DNA from: Pontederia crassipes
Lineage: Eukaryota > Streptophyta > Magnoliopsida > Commelinales > Pontederiaceae
Direction of reading: 5' to 3'
NCBI GenBank assembly: GCA_030549335.1
Contig: JAUKPH010000018.1
Span: 2,852,001-2,916,000 of the forward strand
Length of the DNA: 64,000 nt
The notes beneath the pieces are model-generated. The model saw only the letters and a program-made list of their open reading frames with translations. It was not told the DNA's origin and did not search any database. The translations under genes were made by a program, and so were the position numbers. Below are positions 17,501 through 40,690 of the stretch, one piece after another (position 1 is the first letter of the stretch; every line of letters begins with the position of its first letter).

Positions 17501-19331
17501 CACTACAAGAAAATCGCGATTTTCCGGCGGATAATTTTCGACGGTTCTAAATCCGTCGCTATTTGCGACGGATTTTTCGACGGTTATGACCGTCGAAAAT
17601 AATTTATATTATTATTTAATTTTTCGACGATTAGGAACGTCGATATTTTCGACGGATATCCATCCATCGTAATTTCCGACGACTTTTCCGACGGTTACGA
17701 CCATCGGAAATAAAAAAAATTAAATTATATATTTTTAATATTATTATTAAATTTTTTCGATGAATTTTCCGACGGTCACGACCGTCGGAAATTAAAAAAA
17801 TTAATTATATTATTATTTAATTTTTCGACGATTAGGAACGTCGATATTTTCGACGGATATCTATCCGTCGCAATTTCCGACGACTTTTCCGACGGTTAGG
17901 ACCGTCGCAAATAAAAAATTAAATTATATATTTTTAATATTATTATTAAATTTTTTCGACGGATTTTCCGACGATTGTGACCGTCAAAAATAAAAAAATT
18001 AATTATATTATTATTTAATTTTTCGACGGTTAGGAACGTCGATATTTTCGACGGATATCCATCCATCGCAAAATCTGCCGCAATTTTCGAAGGTCGTAAC
18101 CGTCGGTAAATCCGTCGCAATTTCCGACGGATATCCAAACCGTCGCAATTACCGACGGTTTTGACCGTCGGTAAAGATTACCGTCGATTCAAACCGTCGG
18201 TAAAATAAAAAATAAATATTATATATAACTAAATAAAATAAAATTTTTTATTATTTATATTTTTGACGGCCGAAACCGTCGGTAATTAAAATTTCGTTAT
18301 CCCACTTTTTTTTCTCTTTTCCCGCTTTCTTTCCACTTTTTTCCTTTATATATTTTCCCTCCTTCCTCTTCTCTCTCCCTCCTCCCTCCACTCCTCTCTC
18401 TCTCCCTCCTCTCCTCTCTCCCTCTCCCGGCCGCGAGCACGGATGCCGGACGTCGGTTACACCGCGAGATCGGCCTCTCCCGCGCGCCGGACGCCGACGA
18501 CCCTCTCCCGCGCCGGCGTATCTCTCTCTCCCGTTCCGCGCCGGCATCTCTCTCTCTGATGTCAGCCGGATCCGACCTCCAGCGGCCGGATCGACCGCCT
18601 GGCGCCGGATCCGGTCTCCTGGCAGCGGATCCGGCCGCCTGGCGCCGGATCGGCCGTCAGGCGGGCCGGATCCGGCCTCCTGGCGGCGGATCCGGCCGCC
18701 TGGCGGCCGATCCGGCCTCCTGGCGGCGGATCCGAACGCCAGGCGGCCGGATCCGGCCGCTAATTTTTTTTATATTTAAAAAATTATTTGCGACCGTCAA
18801 AAGATCGACGGTTACGATGACCGTCTAAAGTTTTGACAGTTGGGACCGTCGAAAAGTTGCGATGGCTCGGACCGCCGGCCTTTTCTGGCGATTGCAACCG
18901 TCGGAAATTTCGACGACTCGGACCGCCGGCCTTTTTCGGCGGTTGCAACCGTCGGAAATATCGACGGCTCGGACCGCCGGAAGCCTTTTCCGGCGGTTGC
19001 AACCGTCGGAAATATCGACGGCTCAGACCGTCGGCCTTTTCCGACGGTTGCAACCGTCGAAAATATCAACGGTTCGAACCGCCGGGGACTTTTCCGGCAG
19101 TTGCAACCGTCGGAAATTTTCGACGGGTCGAACCGCCGGGGACTGTTCCGACGGCCAGAACCGTCGATATTTTCGACGAATTTTTTTCAACCGTCGCAAA
19201 TCCGTTTGCGACGAGCGTTTTTCCGACGGATCGATTCCGACTGAAAAACCGTCGGTAATTACGTTACCGACGATTTTCGAGCTGATTATCGATGATTCGG
19301 ACTGTCGGTAATCCGCGTTTTTCTTGTAGTG
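17501..19331. mobile_element. CACTA (En/Spm) non-autonomous element 1
   Basis: The ends are CACTACAAGAAAATCGCG and CGCGTTTTTCTTGTAGTG, flanked by ATC at 17498-17500 and 19332-19334, the 3-bp duplication expected of CACTA. The left arm holds three units of about 200 bp (landmark TTTTCGACG at 17621, 17822 and 18020). The right arm (about 18843-19160) holds six units of about 60 bp with GCAACCGTCGGAAAT. Both arms are dense in CGACGGT and CCGTCG, the likely transposase-binding subterminal repeats. The middle has a TATATATT box near 18347, a CT-rich leader and a GC-rich minisatellite with GGATCCGGCC (about 18567-18762). No transposase is present, so mobilisation would need another element. Confidence 0.92.
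18567..18762. repeat. GC-rich GGATCCGG minisatellite inside CACTA element 1
   Basis: Units close to CTCCTGGCGGCGGATCCGGC recur about eight times with small changes. The frames across it are artefacts of the repeat. Confidence 0.8.
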
Positions 19332-21561: not shown

Positions 21562-22649
21562 CACTATAAGAAAAAGGTTGATTACAGACGGTCAAAATCG
21601 TCTGTAATCAGCCCCAAAACCGTTTGTAATGAGATTACAGACGAATTTATCGACGGATCCGATCCGTCGAAAAAACGGTCATCACAAATCATTTTTCGAC
21701 GTCAAATAAAATTCGTCGAAAGTACCGATAATTTGACCGCCGAAAGTTTCGACGGTCGCGCGAGATCGACCGCGGGAGGCCGGATCAGCGGCCGATCAAC
21801 CGCCTGCCTGGCGGCCACATTCTGGGGAAGGAGGGGGGAGAGAGAGGCGCGCGAGGGTCGCCGACGATCGTCGTCCGGGAGGGAGAGGGTCGCCGGCCGA
21901 GAGGTCGTCCGAGAGGGAGAGAGAGAGGAGAGAGGGAGAGAGAAGTAGATTTGGGAAGATTATATATATATATATATAGGTGGAATGAGAAAGTGGAAAA
22001 ATGAAAAAAAGCGGGATAGTGAAATTTTAATTACCGACGGTCCTGACCGTCGAAAAAGTAAATATTAATTATTTTTAAAGTTACCAATGATTGTGACCGT
22101 CACAAATTATTTAATTAAAAAAATAAAATACTATATTAAGTTATATATAATATTTATTTTTTAATTTATAGACGGTTTGAACTGTCGCTAATTATTACCG
22201 ACGGTTCGGACTATTGCTAATTATATTAATAAAATACTCATCATATTATATTATTATACATTTACCAACGATTACGACCGTCATAAATTATGGCGGATTT
22301 TGCGACGGATAGATATCCGTCGGAAATATCGACATTCTTAATCGTCGAAAAATAAAATAGTAATATAACAAATTACATGATTTATTATTTTTATTTCCGA
22401 CGGTTGTAACCGTCGGAAATTCGTCAGAAGTTGTGATGGATGGATATCCATTGGAAATATCGACATTCATAATCGTCGAAAAATAAAATAATAATATAAC
22501 AAATTACATAATTTAATATTTACATTTCCGACGATTGTGACCGTCGAAAAATCCGTCGGAAATATTTTTGTCGCAAAATCTGCGCAAATTGCGACGGATT
22601 TCTATCCATCGGAAGTTGCTCGTCGGAAAATGGCAATTTTCTTGTAGTG
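21562..22649. mobile_element. CACTA non-autonomous element 2, nested in the Gypsy 5' LTR
   Basis: The ends are CACTATAAGAAAAA and ATTTTCTTGTAGTG, with ACC at 21559-21561 and 22650-22652 as target duplication. The 3' LTR shows the empty site near 31780. It belongs to the same family as 17501-19331 but in the opposite orientation: a shared block next to GTCGGTAATTAAAATTTC, a TA-rich TATA region (about 21962-21978), a GA/CT-rich leader and a GC-rich core (about 21750-21900). CGACGGT-type subterminal repeats fill the long arm. No transposase is present. Confidence 0.92.
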
Positions 22650-34770: not shown

Positions 34771-35640
34771 GTAAATTTTCTTGTAACCACCTAGAATAAT
34801 ATTCTATAGATGCCCTTCTACTTGCCACAGATGAATTTAGCATGCCAGAAATCTTTACTGATTCTCCTCAAGAAATGAAATGTTTTGTCAATTTTATTGC
34901 GACCACTTAAAATATATTGGTTTAGAATCAATTGTTTGCTCTTTAATAAAATACCTCTGATCATGATAGCTTATGTTGACGGAATACATACTTGGCTGCC
35001 TTTGGCAACACCCGAACGCAAGAACTTATGTTCTGAGAACTAAAACGATGTGACATGAAAATCTCGCCGGCTTGTTTGGGAAAGTTCAGCATCGCCGAAA
35101 ACATTTTCATCTGATTTGACGTTCAAATTCTACTTTTGTTATGGTCGGTGTTTGGAGGAAGTTCTCAACCCTCGCGGCAAAAAAATAATGGCAGGATGAA
35201 CTCAACAGATGTTCCGTATGTAAAATGACTCGGCAAAACGAACGTAGCTAAATTTGTAGATAGGATGCAACTAAACCAATCTTAACTAAGACATTGCAAA
35301 GCAATTTACTGCATCTTTATGTATGTAAAACACAAGTGCAATTCCTGAAGAACATAATCAAGAACTTCTAAAAAACTACGGAGATTCGATGTTTGAACTT
35401 ATGAGATGTTCAACTGCATCATCCACTAGGTTGAATCTGCCAAATGAACTATTACCTGATCGCGTGGACTTCGTAATTGATCACTAGCTGATTACTATAA
35501 GTTTCTATCCCATTTTAGATGCATTTCATTCATATCGAGCCCCATTTTTGCCTACCTTTTGGCCAATTATGCTTGGAATGCATAGATTGTGATAACTAGT
35601 TGATCTTCCTCACTTTATACTTAATTACATGTGCATAGAG
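34771..35640. other. non-coding DNA downstream of the MKK pseudogene
   Basis: No further kinase exon could be read. The composition is mixed and there are no repeat borders. Confidence 0.4.
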
Positions 35641-35682
35641 ATTCTGAAATGCCAAAATCCATAAATAATTCATTTCTATGCC

Positions 35683-36219
35683 AAGTTATCATTTTTTTAG
35701 ACAAGTTATCACTCCTATATGTCAAGTTATCATTATTTTGAGTGAACTGATTTTCAATGATTTTCTTGCCCTAAATCCATTATTATCATGTACGAATCAT
35801 ATTTGGATGGTCATATCTCAACTTGTGCAAAGTTTTAAGTCTATTTGAACAAGTTATCATTTTTCCATTGCCAAGTTATCGTTAAAGGGCAAAACTATCA
35901 TTTCGATATGCAAAACTATCAATTTTGCACAAAGGCCTTAGACATTCATTATATTATTGTCCAAACTCATTGTTGTTCAAATTTGATCACATTTGGATAA
36001 ACACAACAAAATTTATGACAAATTATTATTTTTAAGGCAAACAAGTTATCGTTTTGACACCCGAGTTATCATTTTTATAAAATCTTATTCATATTTGATT
36101 TCTGACTTCACTCACTTGCCACCCTAACCCATTTGATTCCTTCAATGCTTTGAACCACTCATATTTGGACATTTTTCATGAAATTTGCAAAGTTATCATT
36201 CCGGGTTTCATAAGTTATC
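35683..36219. repeat. phased AAGTTATC octamer cluster
   Basis: AAGTTATC or a close variant starts at 35683, 35703, 35724; 35851, 35873, 35892, 35913; 36043, 36063; 36190 and 36212. Within groups the spacing is 19-22 bp; groups begin about 150-190 bp apart. More scattered copies occur near 37686, 38044 and 38265. Function is unknown. Confidence 0.75.
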
Positions 36220-36373
36220 AATTTTAATTTATGATTTTCATTCCTGCACAACACCCAATCCTATTTGGTTAACTATACCACGGTTTTAAAGCTTTATTTG
36301 TTTAAATCTTATTTAAGGGCTTTGATGTTTACTGTTGTGGACTTTCCAGCAGGTATAACAATTCTGCACAAAG

Positions 36374-36405
36374 AGAAAAAGTAGGGGGGACCATCTACTT
36401 TTTCT
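36374..36405. other. 11-bp perfect inverted repeat
   Basis: AGAAAAAGTAG pairs with CTACTTTTTCT around a 10-base G-rich loop. Confidence 0.8.
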
Positions 36406-36562
36406 GTCCAAAAAGTTGCTGCAGCAGCAGGATATTCTGAGCAGGGACAGATGGCATAATCAGGGCATAGTAGAACATTATGATGCTAATCAAAGGGTGG
36501 ACAGAAGACATATAAAAGCTGGAATTTCTGGAAGGAAGAGGGGGCTGGCCATTACAGGGTTT

Positions 36563-36636
36563 GGAGAAGGGTTTCTGCACCAAGGAGAAGGGTTTCTGCA
36601 CCAAGGAGAAGGGTTTCTGCACCAAGGAGAAGGGTT
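36563..36636. repeat. 21-bp tandem repeat, 3.5 copies
   Basis: GGAGAAGGGTTTCTGCACCAA starts at 36563, 36584 and 36605 with no differences, then a partial copy at 36626. The unit length is a multiple of three, so the frame EGFLHQG repeats, but no gene context supports coding. Confidence 0.95.
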
Positions 36637-36894
36637 TGAAGCTGGATTGCTGTGCTGCTGGAATTCTGGCCGAGAAGCTTCAAACTAGGATGATTTGTAC
36701 TTGTTCTTCAATTCATTTTGTTTCAAACTTTGTAATTATGAGGAGCTATCCATGTCTCCTAGGATAGGGCAGTAGTTTAGGTTAATTTGGATGGATATGG
36801 ACAGAAATTAATCCCAAACTATTATCAATTCTGATTTTTAGATTTTGCATTGAAATGAATCTGTTCTTGTCATTGTTAGGTCCTACTTTTATCT

Positions 36895-37865
36895 ACAACT
36901 GAGAAGTTGTCATTTGATCTAACCTTTGTTCAGATATGAATAAAAATCAGTGACAAGTTTCTGAATTTCATTTCTGAAATTTGATTTCTGAATTCTGATT
37001 TCCTGCATTCCCTGAATCTGATTTTTTGATTTATTTGAATCTGTTTGTCAATTGGGATTTGATTGATTGAGCAACTGAGAGGTTGATATTAGTCCAAATC
37101 TTGTTCAGAAATGAATCAAGATACTTGACAAATTTCATGATTCAAACTTGTTTCCCAAATCTGATTTCTGAAACTTATTTTCTGAAATCTATTTCTGATT
37201 TCTTTTAGAATCTGTTTTGCCATTTGAATCCTGATTTCATTCAAGCCACTGAGAGGTGAACTTTAAGGATTTCTTATTTTCCATAAATGGATTAAGAAAC
37301 TATTGCTAATGCTGAATTCCAATGAACAACATTGCTGAACTTTCATGTGTAATCAATTGCTGATTTCTATTTTCTGATTTCTTTGGAATTTGATTTCCAT
37401 TGTTAAACCTCATTTTAATCTACTACTGAGAGGTAGTCTTAAGACCTTCCTTGAAATTCAGAGATGAACCAAGGAGCAATGGACAATAATTGAACTCCCA
37501 ATTTAAGATTGGATGCCTTTTAATTCCAATTAATTAGAGTTTGTGTGGATTTCATTTTAAATTACAGCCGAGAGCTTGATTCCAAATCCCCTTGAAATTC
37601 AGGGATGAATCAAGGAGCACAAGCACTGTTATTGGATAGATTTCATCCATGTTTAGCTATTTGAAGTGATTTTCTCATTTTGTGATTGCCTCTAAAAGTT
37701 ATCACTTCAAATTTTATAAAAAAATGACAAAATCAGCAATGAACTTGAATTGGAGCCTAATAATAACTTAATTTTCAGTGGGGATTCTCTTCTAATTCAA
37801 CATAACTAACAATTGTATGATAATATATTGATTAGTTCAGGGCCAATTGAGCTGTGAGAGCAGCT
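36895..37865. repeat. array of paired small hairpins, about 176-bp period
   Basis: A first hairpin with a GAGA loop lies at 36895-36910, 37072-37085, 37247-37258, 37432-37447, 37565-37578 and 37850-37865. A second hairpin follows the first at 37100-37120, 37271-37298, 37458-37485 and 37589-37615, with a weaker one near 36925-36945. Arms differ in sequence between units but still pair. No coding frame is present. Confidence 0.75.
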
Positions 37866-38299
37866 ATATCCAAGGTTGAATCAGATTTAAGTTTTTAATG
37901 ATAACTTGATCCAATCCATCAATAATTAATTTAGATGAACCCCAACTCCTAGGAGAACTTTCCTCATTGAGAGTTAAACCCTTTTAGCTTCTAATCTAGC
38001 ATTTATAATTCAGTTTTGATAGATTTCCAAAACTCCAAAAAGAGTTATCATTTTGCACAACTAAAAATCTGTTTTTCCAATTCCTTTAATTTCTTGTTTT
38101 TAGCCACTTAAGTAGAACTAGTCTAGATTGTGTTAGAGAGCCTTAGGCTTCAAATCTTTGTTGATACGACAACATGAGTCTACTACAACTTACCTGTGCA
38201 TTTGCAGTTAGTGAGTTGGGAGACCAAAAATTGAAAAATTACACTTTTACATAAAATTCAGCAAGTTATCACTACACCCACATTTATCACTATCAGTAA

Positions 38300-38860
38300 T
38301 TTAGCAAGCCTAAAGACGAATTGGGTCGAAATATCCCCAGGAAAATTAAGCAATATAAAATCTCATGCATTTATATCGAAGGACAGTAGAATACAAGAAA
38401 ATTATCACTGATAATGAATGATAATTCTACTATGAAGGACCACACAACAACTACAACAAATAAACCAATGATAATGAAAGTACACAACAACATAGAACAA
38501 ACCATTCCAAGATATCGTACCACTAGTTAGCAGCATTATCCGACAACTACAGAAGTCCATATAACATACTTTGTCAATACAAAATGATACCAGCCACATT
38601 TTAAGAAAGTTAACATATAACACAAGTCCATTGTCTCCACATTGTGAAAGAAAGAGTAGACCACTAGGTACGCACACAACAATATAGCAACAAAATGATA
38701 TCCGTCAACCAATGATAAGATAGTCCACATATAAGATAAGCACATATTGTCCAGCATCCGGAAAGAAGGGTTCGAACAAGCACATAGTCGCCAAGTTTTC
38801 TAGACTTCAAGCCTCACTACAACACTTGCCAATTAAAAAATCTATGTAGGATCACAAGGC
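38300..38860. other. non-coding DNA, nothing recognised
   Basis: AC-rich, with several ATGATAATGA-like stretches. No domain is readable on either strand. Confidence 0.4.
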
Positions 38861-38896: not shown

Positions 38897-39790
38897 GAAT
38901 TGATGTTTAAATCGAAAATATCGATTTTACAAAAATCGTCGTGGAAGCTTAAAATCGATTCGTTAATATTTAAACCAACACAATAACAATCAAATCACAT
39001 GAATAATAGAGTAGGAAGGAAAGAGAGAAAGATAAACTCAAGATGCACGGTGGTTTGTTGACGATGTTCGGCCACACCTTGGCTTAAGTCCCCGCTCCGA
39101 CTTCCCGACCTCGAGACCGTCGGAGATTCACTAGCTTTCTCTTTTCTTGTAGGGAGAGAATAACCCTTTTTACACCACAATGCCTTCTTCTTTGATCAAG
39201 AGGTAAGTCACACCTTTCTTATAAGGAGCTCTCAAACTCTCTAAACAAAAACACAAGAATTCCCTCAAATTCTCTCTTCTTACAAAGAATGTTTACACTT
39301 AGAAACTAAAAGAGGAAAGGGATGATTTGCAACTTTGGCTCATGAAAAATGCTTTAGATTTGAAGGGAACTCTAGAATGATTTGCCTTGCTTAGTTGATC
39401 TTTCTTCAATCTTTTGGATCCCTTTTATAGGCTTCTCTTGAAAATTTGACCGTTGTAAAGTAATTCAAAAAGATTGTGCTGTTAGCTCTATAACGGTCGA
39501 CCATTTTAGATAACAGTCGACCGTTTGAATAGTAACTAGCCATTGCGCTTGTCTTTTCTACGCAGTTATCAATTGATGGTAGTCCGCAGAAGGATTTTAG
39601 CCGTTGTTGTTGCTTTTGCTCCCATAACGATTGATCGTTAATGTTTCGGTCGTCCGTTTTAGAAATGTCTTTGTTTTCTGTGATTAACGATCGTTCCGAC
39701 AGCACCTTCGGTCGTCCGTTTTAAACCGTTCATCCTTTTTTACCCATAACGGTCAATCATTTTATCATTGACAGTCTGATAGACCTGTAC
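38897..39790 (-). mobile_element. possible LTR-retrotransposon non-coding fragment
   Basis: A GGGGTGAATT start and a long stretch with TTCGGCCACACC and AAGAGGTAAGTC resemble LTR sequence of plant Copia elements in minus orientation, from memory of the type only. At 39470-39780 it carries GGTCGACC-type motifs. No borders or coding parts were found. Confidence 0.35.
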
Positions 39791-39792
39791 TC

Positions 39793-40690
39793 TTTTATAC
39801 ATAACTTTTTGCACAGTTATCCAAATGAGATGATATTTAATTCTATAGAAAGATAACAAAATGCTATACAACTTTTGTATTAATCATTCATCCAAAATCC
39901 AACGAGATCATAGTCAAATATTCAATCAAAGTTCAATGCATAAGGTTGTCAATTTCAAATTAAACTTTATAGGCCTTACTCATTTATACATAACTTTTCA
40001 TACAAGTATCCAAATGAGTTCATTTTTTATTCTATGAAAATATAACATAATTCTCTACAATTTTATGTTCATCATTCATCCAAAATCTAATGAGATCATA
40101 GTCCAATATTAATTCAAAGTTTAGTACACAATGTTGTCTATTTCAAATGAATCATTTTAGATATTTACTCTTTTATACATAACTTTTCATACCAATATCC
40201 AAATGAGATGATATTTGATTCTATGAAAAGCTAACACTTTTATTTACAATTTTCCTGCTCCCTCTTATCCAAAATCAGTTGATAAAGTAATCAAATATTT
40301 AATGAAAGTTCAGCACATAAAATTATCAACTTCGAACAGAACTTGTCGATCTTCACTATTTTTGGCATAACTTTTGATACGATTATCCAAATGAGATGAT
40401 TCTTAATTCTATGAAAATATAAGAGGGTTATATATAATTTTTATGTTAATCTCTTTATCCAAATCTCATGATGGAATACTCAAATATTAAGTACAAATTT
40501 AGTACATAAAAATATCAAATGCAATTTGAACTTTTCAAGCTTCACTTGTTTAAACATAAGGTTTTATGTGATTGTCCTAATGAGGTAATTCTTAATTTTC
40601 TACAAATAAAAGAAAGTTATCTATAACCTTTATATTCACCTCTTAATATAAATCCCATGCGAACATAGACAAATATTAATATAAATCGTC
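39793..40690. repeat. satellite-like tandem array, about 5 x 189 bp
   Basis: The landmark TTTATACATAAC or variant starts near 39794, 39983, 40172, 40361 and 40549, a period of 188-189 bp. Each unit also has TATCCAAATGAGATGAT-like and TCATCCAAAATC-like landmarks. A single diverged unit seems to lie at about 55055-55215. Confidence 0.88.

Follow-up and report, generated by a model that had tools for sequence, protein, structure and literature searches.

A solo LTR carrying an array of hairpins

The window, by which we mean the whole 64,000-nucleotide stretch analysed here, comes from the 1.13-Gb genome of the plant Pontederia crassipes (contig JAUKPH010000018.1, positions 2,852,001 to 2,916,000 of the forward strand) and contains open reading frames (ORFs) of both copia and gypsy type. 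Within it lies a long terminal repeat (LTR) that begins with TGATCACTAG and ends with CACTATCA, its termini (TGATCACT...CACTATCA) being of the TG...CA type with GTAAT flanking both sides. When the window is compared by BLAST with fetched copies, the homologous copies mostly stop at, or a few bases from, 35477/35478 and 38295; a DNA search with 36500–38000 as query returned 74 matches, from the best 40 of 6306 candidates scored. As self-comparison found no second LTR copy within the 64-kb window and the target site duplication is closed on both sides, this is a solo LTR. A probable TATA box lies inside it, in a stretch (columns 36505–36516) where the commonest base of each column is common to 34–38 of 39 aligned copies, and transcription presumably starts some 30 bases past this box. 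The array of hairpins that is our subject follows downstream, and the features of the locus are these:

35473–35477, no strand: left target site duplication GTAAT, the same sequence as 38296–38300
35478–38295, plus strand: solo LTR, 2818 bp, Ty3/gypsy (probably Athila-type), ends shared with most homologous copies
36510–36517, plus strand: probable TATA box ATATAAAA, from column conservation among aligned copies
36895–36910, plus strand: module 1, hairpin 1, ACAACT GAGA AGTTGT
36929–36940, plus strand: module 1, hairpin 2, inner stem TTCA GATA TGAA (GAAA loop in some other copies)
37072–37085, plus strand: module 2, hairpin 1, CAACT GAGA GGTTG
37098–37122, plus strand: module 2, hairpin 2, outer stem of 6 bp, 1-nt bulge, inner stem of 4 bp, GAAA loop
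37247–37258, plus strand: module 3, hairpin 1, CACT GAGA GGTG
37271–37298, plus strand: module 3, hairpin 2, outer stem of 6 bp, internal loop, inner stem TCCA/TGGA, TAAA loop (GAAA in most copies)
37422–37437, plus strand: module 4, hairpin 1, ACTACT GAGA GGTAGT
37448–37475, plus strand: module 4, hairpin 2, outer stem TCCTTG/CAAGGA, inner stem TTCA/TGAA, GAGA loop
37565–37578, plus strand: module 5, hairpin 1, CAGCC GAGA GCTTG, one pair lost in the window copy
37590–37615, plus strand: module 5, hairpin 2, outer stem CCTTG/CAAGG, inner stem TTCA/TGAA, GGGA loop
37850–37865, plus strand: lone sixth hairpin, AGCTGT GAGA GCAGCT
38296–38300, no strand: right target site duplication GTAAT, from the sequence

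Five modules of about 72 nt and a lone sixth hairpin thus follow the TATA box. Each module consists of hairpin 1, with a stem of 4–6 bp and a GAGA loop, a gap of 10–12 nt (module 1 is the exception, with 18 nt from hairpin 1 to the inner stem) and hairpin 2, in which an outer stem of up to 6 bp and an internal loop or bulge lead to an inner stem of 4 bp, TTCA/TGAA or TCCA/TGGA, capped by a GNRA loop. Hairpin-2 loops are mostly GNRA (GAAA, GAGA, GGGA), GATA and TAAA being the exceptions in the window, and the closing pair of the GAGA loop is T-G in four of six units, T-A in one and C-G in one. The hairpin at 37565–37578 is interrupted by a C.C mismatch in the window, its stem being intact in most other copies, and the module model did not find a full module at the lone sixth hairpin. 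The units are tandem copies (70% identity over 198 bp and 78% over 81 bp in the two longest matches), and the modules therefore share ancestry. No stop-to-stop frame exceeds 52 aa on either strand within 36885–37890, and no tRNA was found in 35000–38600. Rfam gave no match at its gathering score in the window; among sub-threshold hits in 36500–38300 the lowest E-value was 0.03, for the snoRNA model sR35, whose score of 20.4 bits is below the cut-off of 60.

The initial annotation of this DNA, made from the letters alone, had described six GAGA-loop hairpins, and all six are present, as is the T-G closing pair that it saw in most units. A second, longer hairpin, which it also reported for most units, is seen in five, the annotation having overlooked the mostly GNRA character of its loops. 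The suggestion that the region might be LTR sequence of a retroelement was correct: the array lies downstream of the conserved TATA box in an LTR of a Ty3/gypsy element, probably Athila. The proposed period of about 176 bp describes the first four units only, the successive loop-to-loop distances being 176, 174, 177, 142 and 286, and the likeness to nucleosome spacing is not supported, in view of module spacings of 142 and 205 and of the 286 to the last hairpin.

The same LTR holds other repeats. The 9-mer AAGTTATCA occurs nine times in it, eight of them in plus sense, in its U3 part and its 3' part (35683–36220 and 37696–38271), and 12 times in the window against a mean of 1.27 and a maximum of 4 in shuffles; it is possibly a short repeated promoter or binding motif. 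A reading of these flanking repeats as the mark of a DNA transposon was rejected, for they sit inside the same LTR as the array. Directly past the TATA box, at 36563–36637, lies a perfect 21-bp tandem repeat of 3.6 copies, and the stretch that holds it (36578–36677) is gap-rich among LTR copies.

The element and its lineage

Elsewhere in the genome the LTR is followed by a primer binding site (PBS), AGTTTTTGGCGCCGTTGCCGGGGAT or a near form, or preceded by a GGGGAGTT-like polypurine tract (PPT). Five LTR pairs were measured; they stand 7.2–10.0 kb apart with a K2P distance between LTRs of 0.033–0.047. Each of their 5' LTRs is followed by a PBS, and four of their five 3' LTRs are preceded by a PPT-like stretch, the fifth 3' LTR being itself incomplete. 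The array reads in the sense direction of the element, downstream of the TATA box and upstream of the PBS. Interior ORFs, which come from pieces of two elements, match the Pfam families Retrotrans_gag, aspartic protease, RVT_1, RT_RNaseH and integrase, and between the LTRs the integrase comes after RNase H, as in Ty3/gypsy. A Gag CCHC zinc knuckle pattern, CDVCENQGHVTKSC, was read in one interior ORF.

With the T-arm letters GGTTCGA in front of it, the complement of the PBS TGGCGCCGTTGCCGGGGA has 39 genome occurrences and its reversed control none, as expected of a tRNA primer; we take this tRNA to be tRNA-Asp, and the Gag and RT of the element to be Athila-like in appearance. No Chromo hit at E 0.1 was obtained in the integrase C-terminal ORF of one element (L029:6956-7510), and the additional RNase H (aRH) that marks Tat was absent from 10 scanned ORFs, which are part of the interior frames. 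The Athila ORF-1 domain PF03078 likewise gave no hit in 10 ORFs; it is an optional and not a defining feature, reported for 16% of Athila elements (PMC6317226). The same source describes non-chromoviruses as using a PBS for tRNAs other than Met, Asp among them (PMC6317226). The array thus belongs to the LTR of a Ty3/gypsy retrotransposon, and the most likely lineage is Athila, of the OTA clade.

Copies and relatives of the array

Among 39 LTR copies, some of them truncated, five modules are found in 29, six in eight, four in one and three in one (nhmmer, E<0.01), at spacings of 138 to 205, apart from one of 351. Diverged LTRs, 66–76% identical in aligned pieces, also carry modules; copies related to one of them number about 40 among the matches listed, and such LTRs enter the analysis with few modules. 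A model built from 29 sequences of modules 3–5 recovers modules 1 and 2 in the window (E 1.2e-7 and 5.8e-7), with no other match in the 64 kb and none in a further 147 kb of DNA unrelated to it.

The hairpin core of one module, with four stem bases left free, has 1601 genome matches and its reversed control one; of 100 matches listed, 98 keep both variable pairs, 81 of the 100 being one identical sequence. A hairpin-2 pattern has 648 matches (control 0), and among the 21 matches listed with letters 18 keep the pairs, the three exceptions, spaced 6.4 kb apart, seeming to belong to a single local repeat. In viral contigs an initial search pattern gave 16 single matches, to which the module model gives no score and which are probably chance, and a stricter pattern gave none in viral contigs and none in prokaryote genomes. 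Plants are represented by this one genome.

LTRs of the array's family were also seen to adjoin each other, or diverged relatives, in inverted orientation, at C9:50876290-50891008 (L029, L030), C15:19846500-19852006 (L033) and C9:49240815-49246932 (L042).

Probable selection on pairing and loops

In 36850–37900, six GAGA hairpins have an unbroken stem of 4 bp or more (with G.U counted as a pair), against a mean of 0.26 and a maximum of 3 in 2000 dinucleotide shuffles; the six are five of those in the initial annotation and a second-type hairpin at 37457–37468, the hairpin at 37565–37578 going uncounted for its C.C mismatch. The initial annotation had offered such a shuffle as a way to undo its own reading, and the reading survives it. 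A structure-blind alignment of 30 modules points the same way, with 88.9% of cells pairing and both sides changing in seven of ten pairs, and pairing falls to 11–51% when the partner is slid by 1–3 columns.

Because the modules are related, phylogeny must be kept in any test. An R-scape-like screen of all column pairs in 132 mixed modules, with a tree-based null, yielded no pair at E<0.05 (lowest 1.03); a pair outside the stems came out on top, and non-structural pairs equalled or exceeded the stem pairs in score. We think that this negative result is due to the few deep branches among the five unit types. Measured against the refuting conditions named in the initial annotation the answer is mixed: this screen was negative, and tests directed at the named structure, keeping the tree and the site rates, were clear.

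A second test used a tree of 38 of the 39 LTR copies, without the diverged one, and compared internal branches, taken as mostly pre-insertion, with terminal branches, taken as mostly post-insertion decay; some internal branches may include decay, and the tree is better than the rough trees obtained from 72-nt modules. The structure definitions come from the same family as is tested. Over 75 stem pairs, changes on internal branches kept pairing 17 times (two of them double changes) and broke it eight times, against 42 and 77 on terminal branches (p=0.0034). With three duplicated rows dropped, the counts are 17/7 internal versus 42/73 terminal (p=0.0028), the kept fraction being 0.71 against 0.46 in control pairs and reached by one of 300 controls; by stem class the contrast has p=0.041 for hairpin 1, 0.34 for the inner stem and 0.055 for the outer stem. 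Random complementary column pairs in the region suffer 19.8 internal breaks (sd 4.5) where the stems suffer eight, 3 of 500 being as low, and show 0.22 internal double changes to the stems' two, a count reached by 6 of 500. Compatible single changes on internal branches are not in excess (15 in stems, 15.8 in controls), and the stem signal thus consists of breaks avoided and of double changes. Terminal stem breaks, at 77, exceed the control mean of 49, with none of 500 controls reaching 77, which we read as the result of more intact pairs remaining to be broken.

The loops are guarded more jealously still. In the 38-copy tree they changed twice on internal branches, once from GNRA to GNRA and once from GATA to GAAA, so that GNRA was never lost, whereas 41 of 51 terminal loop changes destroy it. 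Internal and terminal substitutions number 2/51 in GNRA loops, 28/122 in stems, 55/159 in the rest of the module, 181/475 in spacers and 429/1082 in U3, giving internal:terminal ratios of 0.039, 0.23, 0.35, 0.38 and 0.40 (loops versus spacers p=2.6e-5; stems versus spacers p=0.023). GNRA loops are the site class most conserved on internal branches. On the module tree, nine core pairs show seven internal double changes against 0.40 in controls and nine breaks against 30.2, with none of 1000 controls as extreme in either. A null that keeps the tree and the changes per column gives 75.6% paired leaves (sd 5.1) where 92.4% are observed, and 1.6 double changes where nine are observed; neither observed value was reached in 1000 runs.

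On internal branches, then, loops and pairing have seen few changes, most of them compatible, and it is on terminal branches that they have been lost. If, as we infer, internal branches mostly represent the mobile life of the element, this looks like a domain selected while the element was active and decaying after insertion. The observation made in the initial annotation is confirmed, and its claim that this was a structure that mattered is supported by stems and GNRA loops protected on internal, not terminal, branches.

RNA, DNA or neither

GNRA is the name of an RNA tetraloop fold, and the protection of these loops is for that reason an RNA-type signal. The strand can be addressed through G.U pairs: single changes from Watson-Crick pairs gave G.U 11 times and A.C three times on internal branches, against 34 and 38 on terminal branches (p=0.042), and with duplicated rows dropped the counts become 10:3 internal against 35:35 terminal (p=0.13), so that the branch test taken by itself is weak evidence of strand bias. 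Genome copies point the same way, one pair of module 5 reading G-C in 137, G.U in 134 and A.C in 21 within the 1601 matches, counts of copies and not of independent events. Folding energy offers little, single modules having unremarkable z values of -0.03 to -1.8. Folded in isolation, modules 1 and 5 lack hairpin 1 at lowest energy. The lowest-energy fold of 1 kb, which is not counted as evidence, shows the lone sixth hairpin and hairpin 1 of modules 1, 2 and 3; modules 4 and 5 are there without hairpin 1, and hairpin 2 is present in every module except module 5 of this decayed copy. Taken together, we consider it very probable that the array is a selected domain of plus-sense RNA.

Two quite different accounts would dispense with that RNA. 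The hairpins might act as DNA, whether as dyad protein sites, as cruciforms or as nucleosome-phasing repeats, an idea to which the unit length near 176 bp in the first four units lends something, as do the palindromic repeated motifs reported in Sirevirus LTRs (PMC2829016); DNA dyads, however, have no need of the GNRA loops that are the class most conserved on internal branches, the spacing of modules is variable rather than regular, G.U-type pairs outnumber A.C-type ones (more weakly with duplicated rows dropped) and the array lies downstream of the TATA box, all of which makes this very unlikely. We give equally little credit to the notion that the array is functionless, being made of tandem duplications of one chance hairpin that resemble each other through recent ancestry. 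The units are clearly tandem copies, the generic covariation screen was negative and folding energies are unremarkable, yet neither the contrast of internal with terminal branches nor the outcome of the rate-preserving null is expected from ancestry alone. Still less probable is an array of small-RNA precursors: a miRNA precursor needs longer stems than the 4–6 bp, or interrupted 10 bp, of these hairpins, and the window has no Rfam miRNA match, even if ATHILA elements are reported to yield small interfering RNAs in Arabidopsis ddm1 mutants (PMC11410651).

What a plus-sense RNA domain might do

If the TATA box is read correctly, the array would be transcribed as part of the genomic RNA's long 5' leader, some 350–1330 nt into it and before the PBS, and would fold there. 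That the module is repeated, with its loops fixed and its stem sequence free, suggests recognition of loop and shape by a protein, or loop-loop contacts, at several sites per RNA. We propose that the modules may be repeated docking sites through which Gag, with its CCHC zinc knuckle, would gather the element's own RNA into particles, and loop-mediated dimerization could possibly be added, on the model of the GACG hairpin pair in the leader of murine leukaemia virus. Granted the selected plus-sense RNA domain, we put such a packaging or dimerization role at somewhat short of an even chance, and the explanation as a whole (Athila-type LTR array, selected RNA domain, Gag docking as first choice) is tentative and a touch less probable again. 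The analogy behind packaging is imperfect: in retroviruses the hairpins for packaging are mostly found downstream of the PBS, and the plant array lies upstream of it. HIV-1 NC is reported to bind tetraloop guanosines, but two results count against a simple loop rule: replacement of the HIV-1 GGAG loop hardly affects packaging, and Rous sarcoma virus in which SL-C bears a non-native GAGA loop, or linker changes, has lowered infectivity (all PMC7599994).

Among possible functions we would rank Gag docking first, RNA processing or export second and control of translation third. A part in RNA processing might mean helping unspliced RNA to be exported, stabilising it, or holding back premature polyadenylation in an R region of great length. 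The array would then stand at both ends of the RNA if R is as long as that proposed for Retrosat2 (PMC3485330), and repeated small hairpins would suit a host protein as well as Gag; given that Rfam offers this region nothing better than sub-threshold hits, we judge it unlikely, though worth keeping in view. Control of translation by ribosome bypass or internal entry would answer to a leader of well over 1.7 kb, since the roughly 1.8 kb from the TATA box (36510) to the LTR end (38295) is long for simple scanning and no frame longer than 52 aa lies within 36885–37890. Leader-dependent shunting does exist in plant pararetroviruses (PMC5902531, PMC2241666), but the shunts described use one large stem-loop (PMC2241666) and not, in a contrast that is our own, repeated small GNRA hairpins, and this role strikes us as rather unlikely.

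The Gag-docking proposal can be carried further, to a multivalent code for genome recognition in which five or six related two-hairpin GNRA modules in the R/U5 part of the LTR, duplicated or lost as whole units, serve to recruit Gag or to bring two genomes together. In that full form we hold it doubtful; if true, it would be the first serial, covariation-supported packaging or dimerization domain known to us for plant Ty3/gypsy elements, and its location in the LTR would mean that solo LTRs spread the domain through the host genome and its transcripts. Some 1600 genome copies of one module's hairpin core exist, and host transcripts that bear them may be affected. With its well-defined loops and stems, a modular RNA domain under selection also offers a concrete sequence for probing and binding work, and the contrast of internal with terminal branches offers a simple way to separate mobile-element RNA structure that once worked from post-insertion decay.

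Comparison with known systems

That retroelement leaders can be structured is well known; for a serial array of two-hairpin GNRA modules in a plant Ty3/gypsy LTR, no description was found in Rfam or, among the matches listed, in the open-licence literature on Athila and LTR hairpins. One of the closest known systems is the pair of GACG hairpins (SL-C/SL-D) in the 5' leaders of murine leukaemia virus type, reportedly treated by Konings et al. in 1992. Like the array, these are neighbouring hairpins with conserved tetraloops in a retroelement leader, and in murine leukaemia virus the two GACG hairpins are reported to contribute to dimer stability (PMC5874298). They differ in being one pair, with GACG loops, after the PBS and in vertebrate viruses, whereas the array has five or six modules in the LTR before the PBS, and its loops (GAGA, GAAA, GGGA) include no GACG tetraloop.

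Other plant elements resemble the array in one respect and depart from it in another. BARE is also an LTR retrotransposon and is said to have conserved cis signals for dimerization and packaging, but it belongs to the copia superfamily, and the word hairpin is absent from the main text of the source (PMC3735527). Sirevirus LTRs too contain repeated dyads, though these are DNA motifs, CGG-CCG, that precede the TATA box (PMC2829016), in contrast to the RNA-type hairpins that follow it here. Retrosat2 shares the long LTR, of 3.2–3.3 kb with a proposed R of 2023 bp; it differs in having simple CTTTTT repeats, with no hairpin array described in section 8 of that source (PMC3485330), and is assigned to the chromovirus lineage Del/Tekay (PMC6317226). 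In the long R regions of some retroviruses, residual conservation has been put down to stem-loops by Benachenhou et al. (2013), who could not build models of plant Ty3/gypsy LTRs, the lengths being too variable, and in whose account no Athila element and no serial module were noted (PMC3601003).

Other repeats of the window

Two further sets of repeats lie outside the LTR. Tandem clusters rich in CCGACGGT and ACCGTCGG, with periods of 28–201 bp, occupy 17596–19154 and 22300–22550 and look like the sub-terminal repeats of a DNA transposon. A tandem array of units of about 189 bp (3.9 copies, 75% matches) runs from 39779 to 40686, with a weak match at 55.05–55.17 kb.
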